A stretch of 64,000 bases of DNA, from positions 1,214,207 through 1,278,206 of the forward strand of contig KB904821.1 of the NCBI GenBank assembly GCA_000380225.1, read 5' to 3'. Of the stretch, positions 44,419 to 52,758 are shown piece by piece. Position 1 is the first letter of the stretch; the number at the start of each line of letters is the position of its first letter. Both the position numbers and the translations under genes were made by a program. Under the pieces are notes generated by a model. It did no database searches, was not told where the DNA came from, and saw only the letters and a list, made by a program, of their open reading frames with translations. This DNA is from a filamentous cyanobacterium ESFC-1. GTDB lineage: Bacteria > Cyanobacteriota > Cyanobacteriia > Cyanobacteriales > Spirulinaceae.

Positions 44419-45033
44419 GTGTCTATCCGGCTTTATCTTGAAACTAATTTTATTCTGAGCATTTCTACAGGGCGCGATTCCCTAGCTTTCGAGCTTATTG
44501 ATAATCCTCCGGCCAACTTAGAGATTGCTATTCCTAGTATTTGTTGCATGGAAGCTTTATCAGTTTTAGAAGCCGAAAAAAAGCGCCGTCGCATCCTTAG
44601 TAATCAATATATGGTTGAAAGTCAACAACTAGCAAGAGATCGTATTTCAACCAATTCTGAAGCTTTAGCTCAAATCCTGGAACAAGCTAAAATTAATAAT
44701 AATAAAGTATCAAAAGACCGCGAAAACCTTTTGCGTCAAACCCTAAATCGCTTGTCCGATTGTGCCGAACTGTTACCGCTAACCCACGATATCTTAAAAT
44801 GGAATGTAGAGAATTTTACTATAATTTCAGAACCGACCGATAACTTGATTTTGGCTTGTATTTTGGCCGATGCGCGACTTTATCCCGAAAACCCAAAAGC
44901 TTTACTTAGTGGCAATTCTCAAGACTTCCAAAGTGAAAGTGTGAAACAATATTTAGCAGCAGCAGATATTACCCATTATTTTAAAATTACACAAAGTTTT
45001 CTCGGTTGGTTCAACACCCAAGCCGGATTGTAA
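44419..45033 (+). CDS. PIN-like domain protein
   Basis: A 204-residue protein with a PIN-like pattern: strand with RLYLETNFIL (~4-13, where PIN nucleases have an Asp, here Glu), CCMEALSVLEAEKKRRR (~46-62, acidic), and C-terminal PTDNLILACILADARL (~138-153) followed by ALLSGNSQDF. Acidic residues are in the positions that bind Mg in PIN RNases, though D-to-E at the first site is atypical. GTG start one base after the upstream stop codon. A toxin-like RNase is a hypothesis. Confidence 0.6.
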   Translation: MSIRLYLETNFILSISTGRDSLAFELIDNPPANLEIAIPSICCMEALSVLEAEKKRRRILSNQYMVESQQLARDRISTNSEALAQILEQAKINNNKVSKDRENLLRQTLNRLSDCAELLPLTHDILKWNVENFTIISEPTDNLILACILADARLYPENPKALLSGNSQDFQSESVKQYLAAADITHYFKITQSFLGWFNTQAGL

Positions 45034-48412: not shown

Positions 48413-49789
48413 ATGGCAGACACACTCAAAGCATCTCCCCACGGTTTAGAATTAATCGATCGCGCCCGACGTAGATTAGGGTGGAATAAAACGTCTCCGG
48501 TGTGGCTGGATAAGGCCAATGTGAGTCAAGCGACGTTAAACCGCTTTTGGAAACCAACCTCAATTCGTCGCGAGTGTTTTATCTCAATTTGCGATGCGGT
48601 GGGAGTGGATTGGCAAGTTATTGCTGAAATGCCAGAGATTGACCCAAATGCTTTAGATGCTATTCCTGATTTAGATTGCAGTGGAATGCGTTGGGTGGGA
48701 CGAGAAGGCGCGATCGCGACCCTTTTGACTCAATTAAAAGGCGATTGCCGTTTGGTGTCTGTGGTGGGCATTTCGGGCATTGGCAAAACTGCCCTCGCGG
48801 CCCGTTTGATGGTAGAACCCCAGTTAACCCAAACCCTTCGAGAACAAATTGCGGTAAATTTCGATTGCGAGTCTCCTAGTTTTGCTATGGTAGCGCGATC
48901 GCTACTGTCTGAAACAACCGCCGAAACGGAAGAATTGCAAAGAGACCCGGCTTTGTTGGTGGGGTCTGCGATTACACGCTTGCGAGAAAAGCCTTGTTTG
49001 CTGGTGTTGGATATGGTTGAAGTCCTCCTCGAACCCGATGGAGAAGGGGGTCATCGCTTCAAAGAATCGATTTTTGAGCAGTTTTTAACGGGTTTTCTGC
49101 GGTCTAATGGCATGATGAGTCGGATTATTATTACGTCTCAGTATCAACTTCCCGTTTTAGCAGAAGGACGGTATTTGGCGCGATCGCATCAATGCCGTTT
49201 ATCGGGACTCGACCCATCTAATGCCCTCAAACTGTTCCAAAAATGGGAAGTCAGCCCCCGTTCTGAGATAGAACAGCAATACTTAGAGAGGGCGATCGCG
49301 GTTTATGAAGGGCATCCTCTGGCGTTACGCGCGATCGCAGGGGAAATTCTCGCCTTTCCCTACCATAGCAACATTTCCCTCTACTGGTCGGAATTTGGCG
49401 CAGAAATCGAAGCCGTCGAAAAAATGAAACAAGCCGCAGACCCCGATGGCCGAGACGACCAGCCCAAAATTGACCGCTACAGCCTCACATTGCGAGATTT
49501 GGTCAAAAAACGCATCGAAACCACCTTTGAGCGCTTATACCAAGCTTATCCCCTCGCTGGTATCCTTTTGTGCATGGGGGCGGTATCTCGTCATCCCCTC
49601 GAACGCCAAGGCTGGCTAACCCTCATCTTCGACTCCCCCGAAGAAGACCAACAAAAAGCCTTCGACACCCTTCTACGTCGCTTTTTCCTCGAACCAGAAA
49701 TCATAGGAAACCAGCGACTAGGCTATCGTCTTCATAGTTTAATTCGTTGTGTCGCTCTTGACTATTTACCCCAACTGGAAGAAGAATAA
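48413..49789 (+). CDS. NB-ARC (STAND) ATPase with N-terminal HTH-like domain
   Basis: A 458-residue signal-transducing ATPase. Residues ~10-85 look like a helix-turn-helix region (VSQATLNRFWKPTSIRRE, CDAVGVDWQVI). NB-ARC: Walker A GISGIGKTALAAR (~119-131), Walker B PCLLVLDMVEV (~193-203), sensor-1-like SRIIITSQYQLP and GLxP-like HPLALRAIAGEI (~305-316), then a winged-helix (~370-455). The polypeptide ends right after that, with no WD40/TPR sensor. Two TPR genes follow on the same strand, the first 23 bp away, and may supply the sensor (inference). Confidence 0.82.
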   Translation: MADTLKASPHGLELIDRARRRLGWNKTSPVWLDKANVSQATLNRFWKPTSIRRECFISICDAVGVDWQVIAEMPEIDPNALDAIPDLDCSGMRWVGREGAIATLLTQLKGDCRLVSVVGISGIGKTALAARLMVEPQLTQTLREQIAVNFDCESPSFAMVARSLLSETTAETEELQRDPALLVGSAITRLREKPCLLVLDMVEVLLEPDGEGGHRFKESIFEQFLTGFLRSNGMMSRIIITSQYQLPVLAEGRYLARSHQCRLSGLDPSNALKLFQKWEVSPRSEIEQQYLERAIAVYEGHPLALRAIAGEILAFPYHSNISLYWSEFGAEIEAVEKMKQAADPDGRDDQPKIDRYSLTLRDLVKKRIETTFERLYQAYPLAGILLCMGAVSRHPLERQGWLTLIFDSPEEDQQKAFDTLLRRFFLEPEIIGNQRLGYRLHSLIRCVALDYLPQLEEE

Positions 49790-49812
49790 ATGATTTTTTT
49801 CTGCCTACAATC

Positions 49813-51240
49813 GTGAGCTATTCCGCCCCTTTCCTTGACCTACAATCCCTCGACCAACAAGACCTACCCCATCTCTGCTACAACGCCGCCGGAAAACTTA
49901 TTTTAGCCTCAAATATTGATGCTGAAATTGTTTCTCCTTTCCGCAAACCCAGTTTACAAGAAAAAGCGCATCTGCGTCTCGCCTTCTATTATCTAAAAAT
50001 CTACAAACCCGACGAAAACGCCAGTAACTTAGAGAAAGTTCGCGGCTACATCGAAGCCTTTTATCACTTCTGTCAAATCTCTGCTTGGTCAGTCGCTTGG
50101 CAAGTTTTACAACTTCCGGTAACCACAGGAAAGAAGTTTTGCGACCAATTCAAACAATGGGGTTACTATCGCGAACAAGTCGAAATTTATCCTGCACTTC
50201 TCGGCAAAATTAACTCCGAAACTGACTGCAATTTATACGATTATCTCGGTCACGCTTACTACAGCCTGGGTCAATCCCAAAAAGCCCTCGAAACCTATCA
50301 ACAACAACTCAATTTAGCACAACAAATTCAAAGTCTTTATTTTGAAGCTTCAGCCTTAAACGGCTTAGGACTCATCCTTGGACAACTTGGCCTAGAGAAA
50401 AAAGCTATTTCTTACTATAAGAAAGTAATAGAAATTGCAAAATCTAGAAACGAGTCAATTTTAATAGTTCAAGCTTTACAAGGTTTAGGTGCTAATTATG
50501 GCCGTTTGTGTGATTACAAAAGGTGTACTAATTATTTAGAACAAGCGCTATATTTAGCCCAACAACAAGGCGATCTCACTCTCACTAACTCGACTTTAAT
50601 CAGTTTGGGAGAATATTCTATGTTTTCTGGAAAAACTAGAGAAGGAATCAAATACTTAGAATCTGCACTTTCTTTTTTTGAGACTACTTCAAGCTATTAT
50701 GAAATGAGTTATATTTATCTTCATTTAGCTCATGTCTATATGTTGCAGAATCGGTTACGAGAATGCGATGACTTTTTAATAAAATCTATACAAATTAGCA
50801 AGAAAGAAAATTATTATATGAATATGTCATTAGCTTTTAATAACTTAGGCATAAACCAGGCTTATTTTCAAAAAAGCTATCAAGCAGCAGTTTGTTCTTT
50901 TCAAGAATGCTACTCTTACTATAAAACGTCTTCTAATCAACGAAGATCGTCAATTGTACTCTCCAATATTTCCTACTGTTACGGCTGTCTCAAACAAACT
51001 TCAAAAGCAACTCGCTATGCCAAAAAAGCGATCGCACTCGCACGAAAATCTCAAAGTAAAGAAGCCGAAGCCATTGCACTAGCAGTCATAGGAAACGCTT
51101 ATTGGCATAGTGGTAAACGCATTTCAGGCATATTATTAGCTTTGCGTGCTGCCACAATGTTACCACCTTGGCGCAGTGCCAATGGTAAGCTGATTGTCAA
51201 AAAAACAATGAATAAAGTATTCGGTTTTCTCAAAAGATAA
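49813..51240 (+). CDS. TPR protein, first paralog after NB-ARC ATPase
   Basis: A 475-residue protein. Residues ~1-125 are a domain shared with the next paralog (DLQSLDQQDLPHLCYNAAGK, YIEAFYHFCQISAWSVAW, WGYYREQVEIYP). Residues ~140-390 contain about six to seven TPR-like helix pairs (GHAYYSLGQSQKALETYQQQL and others, in part). The C-terminal ~85 residues are again conserved (SYCYGCLKQTSKATRYAKKA, LPPWRSANGKL). GTG start 49813. It lies 23 bp after the ATPase gene. Suited to protein sensing or scaffolding. Confidence 0.82.
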   Translation: MSYSAPFLDLQSLDQQDLPHLCYNAAGKLILASNIDAEIVSPFRKPSLQEKAHLRLAFYYLKIYKPDENASNLEKVRGYIEAFYHFCQISAWSVAWQVLQLPVTTGKKFCDQFKQWGYYREQVEIYPALLGKINSETDCNLYDYLGHAYYSLGQSQKALETYQQQLNLAQQIQSLYFEASALNGLGLILGQLGLEKKAISYYKKVIEIAKSRNESILIVQALQGLGANYGRLCDYKRCTNYLEQALYLAQQQGDLTLTNSTLISLGEYSMFSGKTREGIKYLESALSFFETTSSYYEMSYIYLHLAHVYMLQNRLRECDDFLIKSIQISKKENYYMNMSLAFNNLGINQAYFQKSYQAAVCSFQECYSYYKTSSNQRRSSIVLSNISYCYGCLKQTSKATRYAKKAIALARKSQSKEAEAIALAVIGNAYWHSGKRISGILLALRAATMLPPWRSANGKLIVKKTMNKVFGFLKR

Positions 51241-51245
51241 ACTCT

Positions 51246-51278
51246 AAAACCCCGATATCTTGAAGATACCGGGGTTTT
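51246..51278. repeat. AAAACCCCG...CGGGGTTTT hairpin
   Basis: AAAACCCCGATATCTTGAAG, then ATACCGGGGTTTT. Strong hairpin between the two TPR genes, a member of the ACCCCGG family; could attenuate transcription into the second paralog. Confidence 0.65.
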
Positions 51279-51309
51279 GACTCCCAGAAACTTTTAAAAA
51301 CGAATCATC

Positions 51310-52758
51310 ATGAGTGACAATCTACCTCCCATAGACTTACAATCTCTATCCCAAGAACAACTCAAAAATATCTGCTACGACTCTGCAGGACAACTGGTTT
51401 TTGCATCGTCCAATAACGCAGAAATCACACCCAATCTGCGGCCACCGACAATTCAAGAAAAAGCCCATTTGCGTATGGCATTTTATTATCTAAGACTTTA
51501 TAAATCTGACAAAGATGCGAGTATTATTGAGCAAATTCGTGGCTATATCGAGGCATTTCACCACTTTTGTCAACTCTCGGCTTGGTCAGCCGCTTGGCAA
51601 GTTTTAGAAATGCCTGTATTTACCGGAAAAAAGCTTTACGAACAGTTTAGAGATTGGGGCTATTATCGCGAACAAGTCGAGATTTATCCGCAGCTATTTG
51701 GCAAAATTGATTCTAAAACAGATTGTATTTTATATTACCAAATGGGTCATGCTCACTACAATTTATGTCAAAAGGAAACGGCTCGTCAATATTTTCAGAA
51801 ACAACTCGATCTTGCACAGCAAATCGGGGATAAAAGTCTAGAAGCTTTGGCTTGGGGAAGGTTAGGTACAATAGCGGCTAAATCTAATCACACTTCCCAA
51901 GCAATCACTTATTATCAAAAGCAGTTAGAACTTGCTAATCTAGTTGATGATAAATTTTCAATTATTATGGCTTTGGAGAGTTTAGGGCTTGCCGAAGATC
52001 ATTTCACTAATCGTAAGCAAAGATATTATTACCTCAATAAAGCTCTTTTGATAGCTCGTAAATACAGTTCAGATGATTTTCATAGAATATTGTTTTATAT
52101 CAATACAATCAACATAACACAAGGTGACATAGAACAAAGAATAGCTTCTTTCAATCAGCAATTGTCTTTTTTTAGGGATACGAAAAATACTTATATGGAA
52201 AGTTTTATTTTAACAATATCATCCAATTGTTATAGTTTAGAATGCAAAGCTGATAAGGCTTTAATTTGTGTCCAAAAATCTCTACTTTTATGTCATGAAC
52301 ATAATTATTACTATCAAAAAAAACATGCTTTAAATAGTGCAGGAATTATTCATGCTTATTATTTAAAAGATTATCAAAAAGGTTTAGAGTATTTCCGAGA
52401 AAGTTTAGCGATCTCGCCAGAATTTAGCGATCTTTATATAACCTCAACTGTTTATTCTAATATTTCGTACTGTTATGGCTGCTTGGAACAAACCCAAAAA
52501 GCAATTTTTTATGCCAAAAAAGCAATTATATTAGCTCGAAAAAGCAAGCGTAAAGAGACTGAAGCTACTGGATTATCTATGATTGGGAATGCCTACTGGC
52601 AAAACGGACAGCGGGTTTTAGGTCTGGTTATTGCCTTAAAAGCTTTATTTATTATGCCTCCTTGGAAAAGTGCCAATGGTCGGCTTTTATTCCAACAAAT
52701 AAAGGCAGCATTAGGGGAATTACCACGAAAGTTATTTCAGAAAATGAGTTCAAAATAA
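51310..52758 (+). CDS. TPR protein, second paralog
   Basis: A 482-residue paralog of the preceding gene. Ends match closely (IDLQSLSQEQLKNICYDSAG, FHHFCQLSAWSAAWQVLEMP, WGYYREQVEIYPQL; C-terminal SYCYGCLEQTQKAIFYAKKA, MPPWKSANGRLL), but the middle TPR-like region (~180-370) has diverged strongly, and is richer in Tyr, Asn and Ile and in A+T. ATG 51310. This pattern of fixed ends and variable repeat core suggests selection for different ligand recognition (inference). Confidence 0.82.
   Translation: MSDNLPPIDLQSLSQEQLKNICYDSAGQLVFASSNNAEITPNLRPPTIQEKAHLRMAFYYLRLYKSDKDASIIEQIRGYIEAFHHFCQLSAWSAAWQVLEMPVFTGKKLYEQFRDWGYYREQVEIYPQLFGKIDSKTDCILYYQMGHAHYNLCQKETARQYFQKQLDLAQQIGDKSLEALAWGRLGTIAAKSNHTSQAITYYQKQLELANLVDDKFSIIMALESLGLAEDHFTNRKQRYYYLNKALLIARKYSSDDFHRILFYINTINITQGDIEQRIASFNQQLSFFRDTKNTYMESFILTISSNCYSLECKADKALICVQKSLLLCHEHNYYYQKKHALNSAGIIHAYYLKDYQKGLEYFRESLAISPEFSDLYITSTVYSNISYCYGCLEQTQKAIFYAKKAIILARKSKRKETEATGLSMIGNAYWQNGQRVLGLVIALKALFIMPPWKSANGRLLFQQIKAALGELPRKLFQKMSSK

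Follow-up and report, generated by a model that had tools for sequence, protein, structure and literature searches.

The locus described here occupies positions 48,413 to 52,758 of the window, by which we mean the whole 64,000-nucleotide stretch of the filamentous cyanobacterium ESFC-1 that was analysed, from a genome of 5.63 Mb. Three open reading frames, all on one strand and separated by gaps of 23 and 69 bp, encode an ATPase followed by two TPR proteins, which we term TPR1 and TPR2. Their features are as follows.

48413..49789, + strand: split STAND (NB-ARC/AP-ATPase) protein, 458 aa, comprising HTH, NBD, HD1 and winged helix without a sensor
48413..48646, + strand: N-terminal XRE-like helix-turn-helix module, aa 1-78, in an exchangeable output/adaptor position (AF2 model, alignment, recurrence elsewhere)
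48767..48790, + strand: P-loop GISGIGKT, aa 119-126 (conserved in alignments)
48998..49012, + strand: Walker B LLVLD, aa 196-200 (D200 invariant)
49727..49747, + strand: MHD-like motif RLHSLIR of the winged helix, aa 439-445 (H441 invariant)
49813..51240, + strand: TPR1, putative separate sensor subunit with eight TPR units, 475 aa, GTG start
49954..50220, + strand: TPR1 coupling domain, aa 48-136, common to partners at other loci and to fused homologs, where it directly follows the WHD
50449..50937, + strand: TPR1 variable repeats, aa 213-375, putative recognition module (identity profile)
50938..51237, + strand: TPR1 conserved C-terminal repeats and cap, aa 376-475, with the motif AYWH.G...PPWRSANG (identity profile)
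51310..52758, + strand: TPR2, second putative sensor subunit and paralog of TPR1, 482 aa
51451..51717, + strand: TPR2 coupling domain, 72% identical to that of TPR1

Pfam recognises the ATPase as NB-ARC (27.0 bits against a cut-off of 23.5), with nSTAND1 also over its cut-off. Alignment of 49 homologs reveals invariant G119, G122, G124, K125, D200 and H441, together with GHPL at 300-303; the protein thus has the intact P-loop and Walker B, and the NBD-HD1-WHD order with a conserved WHD histidine, of the STAND/AP-ATPases. In the AlphaFold2 model (pLDDT 90.6) the HTH module, five helices spanning aa 9-70, is followed by NBD, HD1 and WHD, and the chain stops at residue 458. Structure comparison of residues 90-455 with the NB-ARC of NRC1 gives a Z score of 25.7 (3.8 Å over 317), and the corresponding values are 24.2 for Apaf-1, 22.4 for MalT and 22.1 for the archaeal TPR-STAND protein PH0952 (PDB 6mfv); over residues ~90-458 the scores against these four range from 20.5 to 25.7. 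Fused C-terminal sensor repeats are the usual, though not universal, state of STAND/AP-ATPases. Here they are absent, the chain stopping directly after the WHD, and the putative sensor is a separate gene. The 458-aa gene is therefore a complete HTH-NBD-HD1-WHD STAND ATPase that stops where the sensor should start, and Pfam, the alignment and the model all bear out the original prediction of an ATPase with an HTH-like start, intact P-loop and Walker B, and a winged helix with nothing after it. The HTH fold, which may bind DNA, is a prediction of the model; one relative shows weak HTH_3/HTH_24 matches.

The model of TPR1 (pLDDT 92) contains eight TPRs after a helical region. Its closest structural neighbours are LGN and the Rap/NprR signalling TPRs, with MalT domain III lower (Z 21.7), and given how generic TPR folds are, such a match tells us little. 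More informative is the comparison of TPR1 with TPR2. The two are 45% identical overall, and this identity is spread unevenly: 62% over residues 1-125 (71% over 46-125), 34% over 126-389 (25% over 221-300) and 55% over 390-475. Resolved by helix, it is down to 6% in helix A of repeat four, and by repeat seven has recovered to 65-76%. The difference between ends and middle is 0.257, with a block-permutation p of about 0.0002. The original prediction had the middle repeats differing strongly, which is correct, and the ends nearly the same, which overstates an identity of 55-71%. We considered recent gene conversion as the source of the similar ends and rejected it, since the match at four-fold sites is just ~0.4 in the ends and equally low in the middle; the pattern instead reflects unequal constraint acting on an old duplication. 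Single TPR partners from other genomes repeat this profile against TPR1 (0.36-0.55 in the coupling domain, 0.18-0.25 over residues 213-375 and 0.39-0.43 in the C-terminal part), so that constant ends around a variable middle are a property of the family. A search for tandem DNA repeats in the TPR genes of the window found essentially none.

In order to ask how consistently the two kinds of gene occur together, relatives were gathered by their ATPase alone, and the downstream DNA was inspected afterwards. A single-sequence search of genome contigs returned no matches, and an alignment-based search returned 170 relatives, of which 80 were kept. The pairing set comprises 113 distinct relatives, three of them distant and outgroup-like, with downstream sequence available for 107 non-outgroup loci. 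In 86 of the 113 the next gene on the same strand encodes a coupling-domain TPR protein, at a spacing of no more than 30 bp in 70 of these 86 pairs and with a 4-bp overlap in 23. Adding seven fusions and two loci (L166 and L205) in which the TPR gene lies one ORF further downstream, the ATPase has a coupling-domain TPR alongside it, or within the same chain, at 95 of the 107 loci. All told, related loci with the arrangement number about a hundred. Searching in the reverse direction, 45 of 48 strong coupling-domain matches in 99 genomes were found adjoining or fused to an ATPase, the exceptions being L216, L218 and L221. In the seven clear fusions, which include L111 and L116, the coupling region begins 9-14 residues past the NB core and winged helix. 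An eighth candidate, L122, was not counted, as its coupling match reaches only 16 bits.

That the coupling region directly follows the winged helix in these fusions is the central evidence that ATPase and TPR form one split receptor. The original prediction had proposed such a receptor, and at most related loci its two parts proved to be co-located or fused rather than scattered. It could be argued that TPR1 and TPR2 are independent scaffold proteins and chance neighbours of an unrelated ATPase, given the abundance of TPR proteins in this genome (28 matches). We find this barely credible, and indeed already contradicted: the only strong coupling-domain matches in the genome are TPR1 and TPR2 themselves, and the domain accompanies the ATPase across loci and takes up the position after the WHD in fusions.

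Twelve of the 107 ATPase loci have no recognisable TPR neighbour. ATPases of the same family without a TPR gene are found at L105:7159-8640 (in the genome of the window, C1:1782596-1783621), L103:6753-8288 and L124:4065-5594, and these might borrow TPR1 or TPR2 in trans, or use another partner. Several loci encountered in this survey are unusual in other ways. The contig of L150 is filed as a Flavobacterium MAG and carries a cyanobacterial-type ATPase/TPR pair, so is probably mis-binned. An intein-bearing sugar-nucleotide epimerase/dehydratase lies beside a split ATPase/TPR locus at L104:4645-6984, and at L273:6903-12854 a TPR protein of 1983 aa with two coupling domains lies behind an HTH-ATPase ORF that is apparently truncated.

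The number of TPR genes behind an ATPase is not fixed at two. Five lie behind one ATPase in Symploca sp. SIO2C1 and accompany the ATPase on a plasmid of Leptolyngbya boryana NIES-2135; genome G301 has five genes with seven modules, a plasmid of Nostoc sp. NIES-3756 has six genes, two of them interrupted, and Hyella has two on each side of the ATPase. Between members of an array, identity is 40-65% in the coupling domain and mostly 28-48% in the rest of the protein. The TPR1/TPR2 pair is a small example of such an array. In the Nostoc array (L271:3724-6429) the two fragmented genes out of six suggest sensor turnover. Directly upstream of the PNP-type ATPase at two array loci (L271:14984-19141 and L272:554-4705) lies a gene of ~1385 aa; the Nostoc copy (L271) has PNP, TPR and PIN-TPR-GreABC matches, and the copy at L272 is known by its position and length.

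The existence of broken TPR genes means that arrays could in part be products of decay, and together with the existence of fused relatives this raises the possibility that the split is a frameshifted, degenerate remnant of a fused NB-ARC-TPR gene, with TPR2 a decaying copy. We consider such an origin very improbable for the locus in the window. TPR1 and TPR2 are both intact, TPR1 yields a confident model, and both genes are constrained at their two ends despite diverged synonymous sites. Moreover, the split is the common state across a tree of the NB domain, on which split and fused forms interchange only twice. It is important to note that this tree is a quick one (LG+G4) with some long branches, and that the changes counted on it are approximate.

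By the same approximate count, the NB tree requires at least 27 changes of the N-terminal module, where nine would be the lowest number possible. One and the same NB core is found with XRE-like HTH, LuxR (GerE) and other HTH-like modules, PNP_UDP_1, caspase (Peptidase_C14) and SEFIR/TIR_2, where labels for modules lacking a Pfam match are our reading of the sequences; the HTH types are the commonest N-terminus in the family. PADLOC profiles match relatives' modules as bSEFIR (E 2e-55), caspase and a PN-superfamily effector. EAD8 occurs C-terminally on two ATPases (L205 and L207), and in L212 on a fused receptor and on a neighbouring EAD8-PNP protein; Pfam finds no EAD8 on the ATPase of the window. 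The L212 receptor, from Calothrix (L212:11847-17425), is re-fused in the order NB, coupling domain, TPR and EAD8 (1354 aa) and is followed by the EAD8-PNP protein; a ThiF-JAB protein is encoded at L212:375-1802, and the Hyella locus contains a TPR-PNP protein. The HTH module of the window is found also on other NB-ARC and P-loop NTPases and on AAA_35 proteins. At L249:637-1725 and L256:714-1739 an HTH of this type precedes TRADD-like_N and pentapeptide repeats, and thus sits where a second predicted conflict family has its effector or adaptor.

We also compared TPR genes between loci with conserved surroundings. Across 32 HTH-class pairs with syntenic flanks, which are close pairs and mutually non-independent, median identity is 0.87 for the flanks, 0.87 for the NB, 0.73 for the coupling domain and 0.56 for the remaining TPR. 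In the Tychonema/Microcoleus pair L151/L177 the NB is 91% identical and the TPR 32%, between flanks of 84-89%; in Okeania L153/L161 the values are 92%, 45% and 93-95%; and in L091/L065, from the clade of the window itself, flank, NB and TPR stand at 0.96, 0.86 and 0.59. For several pairs the DNA match spans the ATPase and ~100 TPR codons, stops or weakens, and resumes past the TPR gene, with flanks at 81-98%. One pair from a single MAG (L187/L192) was left out of the evidence for replacement between species. A plausible source of sensor change is seen in the TPR genes of Okeania L188, in which a 120-bp unit is repeated in 9.9 copies. Other lineages behave differently: in VMAP-like Microcoleus loci and in the L125/L126/L180/L183 group the TPRs are as conserved as the ATPase, and the VMAP-like class has medians of 0.92, 0.93, 0.96 and 0.91 for flank, NB, coupling domain and remaining TPR. 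Sensor variability, seen in several filamentous lineages, is therefore real but lineage-specific, and the window is without a relative close enough for direct comparison. The exchangeable modules of the original prediction are supported by these constant ATPases with different TPR genes, and by the five to seven TPR modules found behind one ATPase.

The family is patchily distributed and occurs on plasmids too; the ATPase is present in 48 of 99 genomes, and a strong coupling domain in 19 of 292 genomes from a broader draw of the phylum. Around the locus in the window are genes for YebC, DUF72, WecG, a 3'-5' exonuclease and histidinol dehydrogenase, with no recognised defence island; a PIN_12-domain protein is encoded 3.4 kb upstream of the ATPase (44419-45033). 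An empty-site comparison for the family of the window found the RNase D-like neighbour in other genomes, with the surrounding order scrambled. A phage or prophage origin was considered and set aside, no family member having been found in phages or viral contigs.

Several known systems resemble this arrangement in part. PH0952, Apaf-1 and the plant NRC helpers have in common with it the NBD-HD1-WHD order, P-loop, Walker B and WHD histidine, and PH0952 also a TPR arm; they differ in that their sensor is fused, while here the arm is encoded separately, by one gene or more, and a single ATPase may have several. In Avs and bNACHT proteins an exchangeable N-terminal effector, a central STAND switch and a variable TPR-type sensor form a logical unit (PMC10907252). 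Comparing genes alone, we see the same effector/switch/sensor logic here, but Avs and bNACHT are single polypeptides, whereas in the window the three elements are not on one chain, and PADLOC gives no Avs match to the ATPase. In the VMAP/FxSxx ternary conflict systems reported by Kaur et al. 2020 (PMC7159879), AP-ATPase and TPRs are on different genes, as here, and EADs and PNP, TIR and caspase effectors occur; their TPRs, however, are on a vWA protein accompanied by genes for MoxR and peptide processing. No such neighbours are present at the locus in the window, where a Pfam scan of flanking genes found neither vWA nor MoxR. The PIN-TPR-GreABC class (TPR-GreAB-C-PIN), described as a conflict system by Kaur et al. 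2021 (PMC8195603), consists mostly of standalone genes without a STAND/TPR split, but in Nostoc NIES-3756 the gene immediately before the plasmid-borne PNP-type ATPase encodes such a protein. The PADLOC-DB model PDLC01169, 'TPR repeats containing protein', matches TPR1 and partners with the coupling region included (E 6e-39 to 1e-81), yet names no system, and the output obtained draws no link between TPR and ATPase. Our searches of the open-access literature turned up no account of an ATPase/coupling-TPR split, nor of arrays of sensors; papers elsewhere could exist.

The MalT/AfsR regulators, with an HTH output (predicted here), STAND switch and TPR sensor fold, carry the TPR sensor on the same chain, whereas here it would act in trans. 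They suggest the main rival explanation: a transcription switch that controls a stress or metabolic regulon of the host, with the TPRs as inducer-sensing or inhibitory partners and no role in conflict. The frequency of HTH-type outputs in the family, the nearness of the ATPase fold to MalT, the resemblance of TPR1 to MalT domain III and Rap/NprR TPRs, and the lineages without TPR hypervariability are all consistent with this. We nevertheless judge it unlikely. The same NB lineage bears PNP, caspase and SEFIR/TIR in the place of the HTH. The replacement of TPRs at syntenic loci and their amplification in arrays would be unusual for a fixed regulon, and the distribution is patchy and extends to plasmids.

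We think it probable that the three genes form one split NLR-like (STAND/AP-ATPase) receptor of the conflict class with interchangeable TPR sensor subunits. A role in defence is suggested by the effectors of relatives (PNP, caspase, SEFIR/TIR, EAD8), by sensor turnover, by the patchy and plasmid-borne distribution and by the PIN-TPR-GreABC neighbour in Nostoc. On a fuller model our opinion is evenly balanced: a multi-sensor immune receptor in which one STAND switch is served by an array of one to seven interchangeable TPR sensors through the constant coupling domain. On this model, duplication and replacement of sensors, together with expansion of their repeats, would reshape the array, giving the bacterium a repertoire of recognition specificities, small but expandable, that all feed into one death or response switch. 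As its own gene, a sensor can be duplicated, repeat-expanded or replaced without touching the switch, as is expected of a sensor of non-self.

STAND proteins are held closed by ADP. By analogy, ADP would keep this ATPase closed as the switch, with TPR1 and TPR2 as alternative or joint sensor subunits that may dock in trans on its winged helix via the shared coupling domain, standing in for a fused TPR arm. A ligand bound by the variable middle repeats would then lead to release of ADP, binding of ATP and oligomerisation, so clustering the N-terminal modules. In relatives these are death-type effectors (nucleoside phosphorylase, caspase, TIR/SEFIR). With an HTH, rather than a known effector, as the output module in the window, the response could be transcriptional, by DNA binding, or could proceed by recruitment of a partner.

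In the known prokaryotic NLR-like proteins the sensor is usually in the same chain. A widespread two-gene form, with a constant switch and separate sensors that multiply and are exchanged next to it, would reveal a route to receptor diversity in bacteria, and would parallel the helper/sensor NLR networks of plants. It would also offer the contact between sensor and switch in a natural trans form, where fused receptors make this contact difficult to examine. Since Leptolyngbya boryana NIES-2135 and Nostoc sp. NIES-3756 are cultured strains with arrays on their plasmids, the split receptor is directly testable.
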